64,000 bases of DNA. Origin: Hydrogenophaga sp. (GTDB lineage: Bacteria > Pseudomonadota > Gammaproteobacteria > Burkholderiales > Burkholderiaceae_C). The stretch lies in assembly GCA_011391495.1 (NCBI GenBank), contig JAABQK010000010.1:1-64000 (forward strand), given 5' to 3'. The translations under genes and the position numbers were made by a program. Below, piece after piece: positions 49,308 through 58,294 of the stretch. The notes beneath the pieces are model-generated. The model searched no databases, was not told the DNA's origin, and worked only from the letters and a program-made list of their open reading frames with translations. Positions within the stretch are counted from its first letter, which is position 1. Each line of letters begins with the position of its first letter.

Positions 49308-49990
49308 CCGGCAACACCCCGGTCCAGCGTCAGTTCGGTGGCCACGGGCCCGGACGCGTCCAGCGCCAGGTGCGATGTCAGCAACACGCTGCCACCACGC
49401 TCCAGATGCCCTTTGAGCAGCTGGTTCACGGTTTCAACACCCGCGGTGTCCAGCGCGTCAAACGGCTCATCGAGCAACCACAATGAGGGTTCCCGCTCCA
49501 GTGCCAGCCGCGCCAGCGCGGCGCGCCGGCGCTGCCCTTGCGACAGGGTGCGCACCACGGCATGGCGCCGGTGGTGCATGCCGAGCAGGCGCAAAGCAGC
49601 CAGTGCGCTCTCGCGGCTGTCATCGCGCCCGTGCAGAGCGGCGATGAATTGCAGCGACTCGCACACCGTCAGGTCGTCTTTCATGGCGTTAAGGTGGCCG
49701 ACGTAAACCGGCCGGTCAGCAGCGCCCTCCAGCGGCTCGCGCCCCCAGGCCAGGCGCCCCTCGTCGGGTTGCGAAAGCCCGGAGATGGTCCGCAGCAGGG
49801 TGGTCTTGCCGCTGCCGTTGTGCCCACGCAGCCAGAGCATCTGGCCGGGCCAGACGGCAAACGAGAGCTCACGGAACAGCCATTCATGGCCCCGGCGGCA
49901 AGCCAGACCCGACACCTGAAGCAGCGGTGAAAGGGTGTCAGAAGTCGTAGCGTGCACCAAGGTAATAGTAGAGTCGGTCAGAAGATTCAT
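49304..49990 (-). CDS. ccmA: Heme exporter ATPase CcmA
   Basis: An ABC ATPase of up to 228 aa with Walker A GHNGSGKTTLLR, the signature region LSQGQRRRAALARL and Walker B LWLLDEPFDALD. CcmAB drive release of heme-loaded CcmE. The start is uncertain: the ATG at 49990 overlaps the end of the barrel-protein gene by 53 nt, while a GTG at 49957 would shorten this to 20 nt and still keep the ABC core. Either way ccmA overlaps the upstream cytochrome-associated gene, so translation is probably coupled. Confidence 0.92.
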   Translation of the reverse strand: MNLLTDSTITLVHATTSDTLSPLLQVSGLACRRGHEWLFRELSFAVWPGQMLWLRGHNGSGKTTLLRTISGLSQPDEGRLAWGREPLEGAADRPVYVGHLNAMKDDLTVCESLQFIAALHGRDDSRESALAALRLLGMHHRRHAVVRTLSQGQRRRAALARLALEREPSLWLLDEPFDALDTAGVETVNQLLKGHLERGGSVLLTSHLALDASGPVATELTLDRGVAG

Positions 49991-57337: not shown

Positions 57338-58294
57338 TCAGTAAGCGTGTACCGCGACGACGTGAACCACCGAACTGATCACCAGCAGGTACACAAAGGG
57401 GATGTGGGCCACGTGCCAAAGGGAAAACAGCCGCTCGTAGGCGGTGAACTGGGCCACGCGAACCGCGGCATCGAGGTACCTGCGCACCAGTTTGCGGGCC
57501 AGTTTCTGGCGTTTGGCCAGGCTCTTGTCGTCCCACCCACCGCGTACAGCCAGCCGGTTCAGTGGCTCCTGCAGTTCTTTCACGCAAACCCGGAATGTCC
57601 ACCACTGCTTGATGGGAAGCCAGAACACCCGCCGCATGCAGGCCACCAGGCCGGGCCTTCTGGTCAACTCGTTCTGGTCGAATTCTTTGAGGCGCCGCTC
57701 CACCTCGGGCGCAAAAGCCAGGCGTGAATGGGCTTCGCGCTGGTGCAATCCGGCTCTCTGCTGCAATTCGCGGAAATCGCTTTGCTCGCCGTGCAGACCG
57801 CGGTTGACCCGGCTGTAAATGAAACGCCCCACAACACCGCTGAGCGCCACGATGATCATGCTGTAGAACGCCGCCGAGGCATTCAACGAGCGCACCTGAA
57901 AGGTGGAATGCAACAGAATCAGGATAGGCCCACCCACCCCCAACAGCATGTGCACCAGAAACCACCATTTGGCCTTCCCCCAGCGCTGGGTGAAGCGAAA
58001 TCGTTTGCGCAATGGATAGGTGAATAGCAGCACCATCATCGAGCCACCGGCCACACCCATCCAATAGCCAACATCGTCCCCGGCTTCAAACAAGCCCTGC
58101 TGCGTGATCCACCAGGAACCCCACACCAGCGCAATCAAAACCAGATAGACGAGCACATCACCGGTCAGCCGCGGCATGCGCGGCTTTAGGGGCGCAGGGG
58201 CCAAGGGCTGCATGCCCGAATTCATCCGGATCGAAGGCACTCCCAATGGGCTTCCAGCCCCCGGAAAAGCCTCCGATTTCAATATGGCAGTCAT
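57338..58294 (-). CDS. Five-helix membrane protein, probable diheme cytochrome b
   Basis: A 318-aa inner-membrane protein with hydrophobic helices near 47-66, 77-95, 110-131, 141-160 and 293-318, and a basic cytoplasmic loop between the last two. Helix 3 has His 115 and His 129, and the last helix has His 297 and His 311: HX13H in both. This is the classical arrangement for two stacked b-hemes between two helices. It could be a quinol dehydrogenase or quinone reductase linking the membrane pool to the periplasmic cytochromes encoded next. The ATG at 58294 (MTAILKSEAF) is chosen; an upstream in-frame extension lacks membrane or conserved content. I do not recognise a named family. Confidence 0.75.
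   Translation of the reverse strand: MTAILKSEAFPGAGSPLGVPSIRMNSGMQPLAPAPLKPRMPRLTGDVLVYLVLIALVWGSWWITQQGLFEAGDDVGYWMGVAGGSMMVLLFTYPLRKRFRFTQRWGKAKWWFLVHMLLGVGGPILILLHSTFQVRSLNASAAFYSMIIVALSGVVGRFIYSRVNRGLHGEQSDFRELQQRAGLHQREAHSRLAFAPEVERRLKEFDQNELTRRPGLVACMRRVFWLPIKQWWTFRVCVKELQEPLNRLAVRGGWDDKSLAKRQKLARKLVRRYLDAAVRVAQFTAYERLFSLWHVAHIPFVYLLVISSVVHVVAVHAY

Follow-up and report, generated by a model that had tools for sequence, protein, structure and literature searches.

Here, we focus on a run of genes for a predicted electron conduit across the cell envelope of a Hydrogenophaga sp. (assembly GCA_011391495.1). Positions 1 to 64,000 of contig JAABQK010000010.1 form the window, that is, the whole stretch of DNA that was analysed. 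Fourteen genes follow one another in the same direction on the minus strand, from 58294 down to 41697 (16,598 bp), and the largest gap between them is 92 nt. Starting at 58294, they encode an inner-membrane protein (IMP), a 24-heme cytochrome, a 37-heme cytochrome, a porin, the cytochrome c maturation proteins CcmA to CcmI and finally an iron-sulfur flavoprotein (FLAV). The first four genes are those of the porin-cytochrome conduit type PCC3, and FLAV proves to be a near-constant companion of PCC3 in the genomes sampled, which suggests that it is a fifth component. Within the four-gene core, IMP and the 24-heme cytochrome are separated by 13 nt, the two cytochrome genes overlap by 4 nt, and 92 nt lie between the 37-heme cytochrome and the barrel protein. 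An initial annotation had drawn an operon at 49938..58294; the four adjacent genes with their short spacings are as it described, while the run itself goes on to 41697 through ccmA-I and FLAV. From spacing and synteny we infer that the run is co-transcribed. Scans of the window for terminators (15 found against 11.7 +/- 3.9 expected from shuffling) and for promoters both came out near shuffle level, and neither was used as evidence. In what follows, sampled genomes carry G-codes (the host genome, 86% complete, is G000) and fetched loci carry L-codes.

The initial annotation had read the four genes as an electron conduit, analogous to known ones, of a possibly undescribed type. A trans-envelope conduit is still the best reading, but the type was already described: He et al. 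(2017; PMC5566968) named a four-gene cluster of the same organisation PCC3, which they saw in Leptothrix and Sideroxydans and, more widely, in Alpha-, Beta- and Gammaproteobacteria. For this and the other PCC3 papers, the scope is openly licensed text and word searches, with supplements outside it. As described there, PCC3 has an extracellular cytochrome with a median of 34 hemes, a periplasmic cytochrome with a median of 21, a porin, and a five-helix IMP (~300 aa) that carries two WX3HX13H motifs and an SGXXG motif (PMC5566968). Judged against this published description, the locus is a member of PCC3 by its gene set, gene order, heme numbers and membrane motifs, and it shares the porin, the two giant cytochromes and the low aa-per-heme ratio. 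The published descriptions have four genes, to which this locus and its relatives add the Fe-S flavoprotein and part of the family adds an adjoining ccm operon. Its nearest relatives are found in Leptothrix discophora, Sphaerotilus mobilis and a Gallionellaceae metagenome-assembled genome (MAG).

A survey of gene order, as the initial annotation had proposed, yielded 46 loci with IMP in the genome collection. The full order of IMP, 24-heme cytochrome, n-heme cytochrome and porin is present in 10/46, among them Leptothrix discophora, Sphaerotilus mobilis and the Gallionellaceae MAG (the cytochrome ORF is split in L045 and L049). Another 26 are consistent with this order and end after the second cytochrome, 6/46 end after the first, IMP stands alone in L024, L042 and L052, and L055 is arranged differently, with a cytochrome and porin ahead of IMP. 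The PCC3 order recurs across these loci and is therefore not due to chance. Within the host's own genus (g1), PCC3 is found in 3/36 genomes, host included. One locus, L050, comes from a record titled Candidatus Methanoperedens MAG and carries a 24-heme gene together with a PCC3 IMP that is 67% identical to that of the window; this is most likely a misbinned betaproteobacterial contig in an archaeal bin.

The IMP gene (57338..58294, minus strand) encodes 318 aa of a putative di-heme b cytochrome. The HX13H motifs noticed at first sight belong to two WX3HX13H motifs at residues 111 and 293, with SGXXG at 152, and histidines 115, 129, 297 and 311 are invariant across 24 alignment rows. Both kinds of motif are present in the IMP of 45/46 loci, the exception being a broken ORF in L059. 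The predicted structure is helical (mean pLDDT 73.9), with helices at 45-65, 74-98, 108-130, the start of 137-181 and the end of 256-317. Five membrane helices are plausible and fit this model, yet a hydropathy cut yields four segments.

Next in the run are the two giant cytochromes. The periplasmic-type protein (55378..57324, minus strand; 648 aa) has 24 CxxCH motifs spaced in three-heme repeats and matches Cytochrome_C7 at 7.8e-29, and the extracellular-type protein (52430..55381, minus strand; 983 aa) has 36 CxxCH motifs plus one CX4CH and matches the same family at 2.3e-62. These motif counts bear out the ~61 c hemes that had been ascribed to the pair. Signal peptides were judged by eye in both proteins, and after them the heme density is ~25.5 aa/heme in the 24-heme and ~25.7 aa/heme in the 37-heme protein. 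The latter is rich in Thr, Ala and Ser, and its gene contains a 144-bp tandem unit in ~10 copies with an 80% match. A search for solved relatives gave none for the 24-heme protein at E 0.001 and three weak ones for the 37-heme protein (an MtrC, a cytochrome c family protein and c554). Among homologues of the periplasmic type, exactly 24 CxxCH are found in 38/42 complete ORFs, the remaining ORFs having 21 and 18 and, in the split-gene halves of L045, 9 and 13; in the class-wide sample introduced below, 26/26 such ORFs have either 21 (n=21) or 24 (n=5). Periplasmic cytochromes of Gallionellaceae with 21, 24 and 27 hemes are already visible in the text of PMC10734462. Among relatives with a complete ORF, the extracellular-type partner ranges from 12 (L027) to 90 (L103) CxxCH. 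As far as motif counts indicate, this pattern fits a wire bounded by the width of the periplasm and a surface arm without such a bound.

The 90 CxxCH of L103 stand in one PCC3-type ORF of 3,392 aa (L103:3207-13385, from an uncultured beta proteobacterium MAG), and a single PCC3-type cytochrome ORF at L104:2742-11852 has 78. Both loci come from MAGs and both genes look repetitive; an assembly error is possible. The largest heme count in one protein then known to He et al. (2017) was given as 85 (PMC5566968).

The fourth gene (49938..52337, minus strand) encodes the PCC3 porin, a 799-aa protein with a C-terminal F, assigned through homologues, an alignment of 10, a structural model and PDB matches. 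Its ending as an outer-membrane barrel, which had been read from the sequence, is borne out at moderate confidence by the AlphaFold model (10-row alignment, mean pLDDT 72.7, pTM 0.48). In this model, an N-terminal beta domain (28-134), a SPOR-like region (160-231) and TPR helices (246-333) precede a 22-strand barrel (351-798). Foldseek returned outer-membrane barrel proteins in 48 among the 50 matches listed (best E 5e-10, at low TM scores), and the other two were artificial metalloproteins. From Pfam, one TPR model (TPR_6) lay barely above cut-off and SPOR was weak (E 0.056). PF11854 (MtrB) was not among the Pfam matches of the porin, in agreement with the earlier view that the barrel is not recognisably MtrB, and no match to it was found in G000; neither is there a decaheme MtrA in the run, as had also been stated. 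The porin is homologous to the proteins at the same position in the Leptothrix discophora and Sphaerotilus mobilis loci, with which it was paired by position, and a homologue was found in 13/13 PCC3 genomes searched for one. The N-terminal part may serve as a periplasmic platform that holds peptidoglycan or docks the 24-heme wire. Its SPOR-like portion is absent or shortened in relatives, e.g. L049, L061 and L045.

At the far end of the run, FLAV (41697..42986, minus strand; 429 aa) consists of an N-terminal hydrophobic stretch, a two-cluster ferredoxin region (Fer4_10, 4.7e-10) and a Pyr_redox domain (Pyr_redox_3, 4.6e-42). The second Fe-S motif reads C-I-G-H-G-A-C-x3-C-P in the window, and its histidine is kept in 50/50 covering rows. 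The GxGPAG and GGGDSA motifs are conserved, and we take them to be FAD and NAD(P) binding motifs, respectively. In 43/51 rows, the N-terminal segment is hydrophobic enough to pass a simple cut. Two known enzymes were tried as identities and rejected, namely a bacillithiol disulfide reductase of the YpdA kind (TIGR04018 152 bits vs a cut-off of 340) and a thioredoxin reductase (TIGR01292 74 bits vs a cut-off of 343, with no CxxC pair in the window protein).

The distribution of FLAV was followed in 299 genomes of the host's family, with cut-offs of E <= 1e-20 for IMP and E <= 1e-60 for FLAV and, as in the class-wide search, at most five best candidates scored per genome. It is found in 22/299 genomes: all 21 of the 21 PCC3 genomes and one of the 278 others, G076 (Fisher 2e-31, the genomes being non-independent). 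At the level of genera, 15/15 with PCC3 have it vs 1/111 of the others (1.6e-18). In G076, FLAV closes a ccmF-G-H-I run that is interrupted by the start of the contig, so an upstream PCC3 may be missing from the assembly. FLAV lies within 20 kb of IMP on the same contig in 13/21 PCC3 genomes (G000, G066, G141, G158, G186, G202, G213, G232, G249, G273, G294, G302 and G308). From 43/46 surveyed PCC3 loci, 43 genomes could be reached (several of these assemblies are shared with the family sample), and FLAV (E <= 1e-40) is present in 40/43, the three misses being MAGs. Across the class, 33/295 genomes carry it. Around 35 such loci (32 genomes, host excluded), IMP is nearby in 29, a porin in 23 and a multiheme gene in 30, and FLAV and IMP are divergent in 27/29, some with intervening genes.

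Some arrangements separate FLAV from cytochrome maturation. It adjoins PCC3 with no ccmA-F found nearby in G141, G302, L049, L054, L061 and L063, and it is found in 0/15 strong-MtrB genomes that do not have PCC3 (the strong-MtrB set omits G138, G222 and G293, which lie barely at the PF11854 cut-off and of which none has CcmE). Thus, a general role in maturation does not seem to fit FLAV, and its near-obligate co-occurrence with PCC3 leads us to propose it as a conserved fifth component. As read from its sequence motifs, this suggests an NAD(P)H-linked inner end of the conduit. No flavoprotein is tied to PCC3 in the openly licensed PCC3 literature, as far as word searches outside the supplements reach; He et al. 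(2017) mention NADPH once in that text, unrelated to PCC3 (PMC5566968), and in PMC10734462 a 4Fe-4S ferredoxin protein appears in a single line of a table. Even with no ccmA-F found adjoining, FLAV keeps a CcmI/NrfG-like TPR gene nearby in G141 (L156), G232 (L161), G286 (L154), G347 (L155) and L049, where this gene perhaps encodes a dedicated apocytochrome chaperone.

Between the porin and FLAV lies the ccm operon, all of it on the minus strand. It opens with ccmA, the heme exporter ATPase (49304..49993, start codon uncertain; ABC_tran 2.6e-25), followed by ccmB (48636..49307) and ccmC (47872..48618), which were recognised by homology and synteny among relatives, and ccmD (47708..47875, 55 aa), assigned by position and sequence type only. 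The heme chaperone gene ccmE (47243..47704) matches PF03100 at 8.4e-36 (G000:C1:47324-47605). After it come ccmF for the heme ligase (45258..47246), ccmG for a thiol-disulfide oxidoreductase (44731..45261, from its position and from WCVAC, a motif noted by eye), a ccmH/nrfF-like gene (44271..44738; TIGR03147 1.8e-32, under the curated cut-off) and a ccmI/nrfG-like gene for a TPR apocytochrome chaperone (43035..44255; NrfG 2.7e-16 and CcmI 4.1e-6, both under cut-off). The genes ccmB, ccmC and ccmF were named after the usual make-up of ccm operons. CcmE and the ccmA-F order together mark this as System I. In the family sample, CcmE was found in 118/299 genomes and ResB, of System II, in 247/299. 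All PCC3 genomes have CcmE (21/21, Fisher 1e-9; 15/15 genera, 3.7e-5), as do 17/36 genomes of g1. However, CcmE is also present in 23/24 strong-MtrB genomes (23/27 counting all above the PF11854 cut-off), so System I tracks multiheme conduits generally, and its value as a PCC3-specific signature is weakened.

What distinguishes the ccm genes of PCC3 is their place and their descent. CcmE lies within 20 kb of IMP in 8/21 PCC3 genomes (G000, G158, G186, G202, G238, G273, G294 and G308), and reading of the regions adds G097, G175 and G198, where the porin is beside ccm, and G249, with ccmABC only, to give 12/21. Among the nine genomes outside these 12, the contig of G248 is cut at the ccm end, and for G113, G302 and G347 the ccm regions lay outside those read; in G141 and G232 the ccm genes are away from PCC3. 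Where a PCC3 genome has a strong ResB match, ccm stands beside PCC3 in 8/9 cases (in the exception, G066, its neighbours are Mtr-type genes), compared with 4/12 beside PCC3 in those without such a match (p 0.024, post hoc). Trees of ccmC and ccmF give one strongly supported group with all PCC3-linked rows, the Mtr-linked G066 and four rows labelled unlinked. Two of these labels are wrong, since in G175 and in G198 a PCC3 porin stands beside ccm, and the other two, G141 and G232, are truly unlinked with PCC3 elsewhere in the genome. A second group holds the usual ccm of the genus (five rows) and the other six Mtr-linked rows, and the genus-mate G032 carries both kinds. The window ccmC is 85% identical to a Hydrogenophaga copy, 86% and 81% identical to the PCC3-linked copies of two genus-mates and 63% identical to five unlinked genus-mate copies. 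Moreover, porin and ccmC identities correlate over 17 loci (Mantel r 0.64, 0/2000 permutations as high, calculated without species-tree control). On these trees and identities, PCC3-linked ccm is a lineage separate from the usual ccm of the genus. Neither maturation nor ccm is tied to PCC3 in the openly licensed PCC3 literature within the scope of word searches that leave supplements aside, where CcmH is listed among the genes distinct to iron oxidisers (PMC10734462). In L110 (G066) and L122 (G186), a ccm operon stands beside two decaheme, Mtr-type genes; G186 has a further ccm next to PCC3.

Taken together, the locus probably encodes a PCC3-type conduit within a 14-gene run, with an NAD(P)H-linked flavoprotein at its inner end, used for export of electrons or reversibly. 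At the cytoplasmic face, FLAV would exchange electrons with NAD(P)H via FAD and two Fe-S clusters, and a pair of b hemes in IMP would carry them over the inner membrane, comparable to what happens inside a single chain in ferric reductases and NADPH oxidases. The periplasm would be spanned by the 24-heme protein, whose length hardly varies; the barrel would keep the point of contact within the outer membrane, and the 37-heme protein would serve as an antenna outside the cell. Loading of the ~61 c hemes would fall to the System I ccm operon located alongside. Electrons that leave NAD(P)H for an acceptor outside the cell run downhill, helped by the membrane potential, and uptake to NAD(P)+ would need a strong donor. 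Because outward flow is thermodynamically easier, we lean, if loosely, towards export or reversible use. A second and smaller cluster of the host genome, L108 (G000:C11, ~13.6-16.3 kb), encodes a ferric-reductase-type NAD/FAD/2Fe-2S protein, an IMP-like protein that matches IMP at E 2.9e-7, and a 10-heme cytochrome; with an IMP-like protein encoded beside a flavin/NAD protein, it strengthens the analogy with NADPH oxidase. A bolder version, a five-part NAD(P)H machine in which a split NADPH-oxidase-like unit drives both wires and which in some family members moves as one cassette with private heme loading, distinct from the housekeeping cytochrome maturation of the host, we put forward tentatively, giving it slightly less than an even chance. 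As far as searched, two things are new, namely that a flavoprotein goes almost obligatorily with PCC3 and that PCC3-linked ccm forms its own lineage, the four-gene conduit type having been known since 2017. As a near-constant partner, FLAV would help to locate the point of electron entry or exit in the cell, and it would predict NAD(P)H-linked extracellular reduction, unlike the prevailing guess of Fe(II) oxidation. A conduit-borne ccm would explain how such cytochromes mature in System II hosts, which is relevant to their expression.

Several points weigh against an NAD(P)H-linked, outward-directed conduit. The published models link the PCC3 IMP to quinone and not to NAD(P)H (PMC5566968, in the text within scope), and no experimental support for PCC3 function was found in the PCC3 literature: its occurrences in Gallionellaceae and Leptothrix were later called predicted or unverified (PMC10734462, PMC12442390, PMC13386937), the 2025 paper among these stating that the function is not yet tested (PMC12442390). 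The cofactors, partner and membrane side of FLAV are what we infer from sequence, and its membrane anchoring is only likely, because the N-terminal segment of the window protein (17-residue mean max 1.22) falls under the cut that most relatives pass. In the window, 14 kb separate IMP from FLAV, which closes the run on the ccm side; the FLAV of G238 lies on a different contig, and the 17 kb that were read there contain no PCC3 gene. Six of the class-wide FLAV loci are without IMP: the G607 locus has a giant cytochrome and the porin, G473 and G483 show weak or fragmentary signs of PCC3, and one G484 copy of two, G636 and G399 show none. Foldseek with the moderate-confidence IMP model gave no significant PDB match, including no solved cytochrome b, so that di-heme b binding is argued from the motifs. 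The surface placement of the 37-heme protein is likewise putative, and no lipobox is visible in it by eye.

The direction of flow is where the published evidence divides. In the model of He et al. (2017; PMC5566968), Fe(II) or Mn(II) would be oxidised outside and IMP would feed the quinone pool, which would leave the flavoprotein as a side enzyme or regulator. Carriers of PCC3 do include iron oxidisers, e.g. Leptothrix and Gallionellaceae, and in Sideroxydans CL21 both copies are expressed above the mean and the IMP of copy 2 is significantly up in iron-oxidising cells (PMC12442390), which also speaks against export. For S. lithotrophicus ES-1, the RNA of both PCC3 clusters is lower on Fe(II) (PMC8788666), which runs counter to inward flow, and the proteome table gives 0 in 8/8 columns for the extracellular cytochrome Slit_1448, its porin and IMP being present (PMC12016527). 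The published Fe(II) expression data are mixed, then, and point both ways. The host has a RuBisCO large subunit, which counts for inward flow and, together with the lack of an MtrB match in this genome, leaves room for autotrophic uptake. Against all this stands the almost perfect co-occurrence of an NAD(P)H-type flavoprotein with PCC3, and we regard the inward reading as unlikely, though worth real weight.

It is far harder to account for the locus as an electron capacitor, in which ~61 hemes buffer electrons with no net external exchange. The very high heme load and the range of 12 to 90 hemes in the extracellular-type partner would suit storage, an option raised in PMC10734462, but storage requires neither the porin seen in every PCC3 genome searched for it nor the flavoprotein found in all 21, and we consider this highly improbable. 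Co-occurrence might also stem from a general anaerobic or multiheme lifestyle, FLAV and ccm being mere neighbours of PCC3. The high frequency of CcmE in strong-MtrB genomes and the ccm genes away from PCC3 in G141 and G232 are what this would predict. However, a shared lifestyle would not explain why FLAV is missing from the MtrB genomes without PCC3, why it flanks PCC3 in varied arrangements across the class, or why PCC3-linked ccm descends separately from the usual ccm of the genus, which makes mere adjacency very unlikely.

The proposed conduit can also be set beside other systems. With MtrCAB, MtoAB and PioAB it shares a barrel and periplasmic (in Mtr also extracellular) multiheme cytochromes; it differs in that the run is without a decaheme MtrA or an MtrB homologue and in the long N-terminal periplasmic part of the window barrel protein. 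Ferric reductases and NADPH oxidases, the FRD-domain family, have two HX13H pairs, a likeness drawn by He et al. (PMC5566968), and here a flavin-NAD(P) partner is added to it. Their membrane and flavin parts form one chain, in contrast to the separate proteins found here, and FLAV, with its Fe-S clusters, resembles TrxR and YpdA and not FNR; nor did IMP give a fold match. In the humic-lake opinion paper, other putative PCCs are described and humic substances are proposed as electron acceptors (PMC6344600, text within scope). PCC4, likewise from He et al. (2017), has a five-helix IMP with the same motifs, a porin and multiheme cytochromes, some clusters having an Fe-S gene by IMP; it has three smaller cytochromes and no extracellular one, and its IMP has no significant overall homology to that of PCC3 (PMC5566968).

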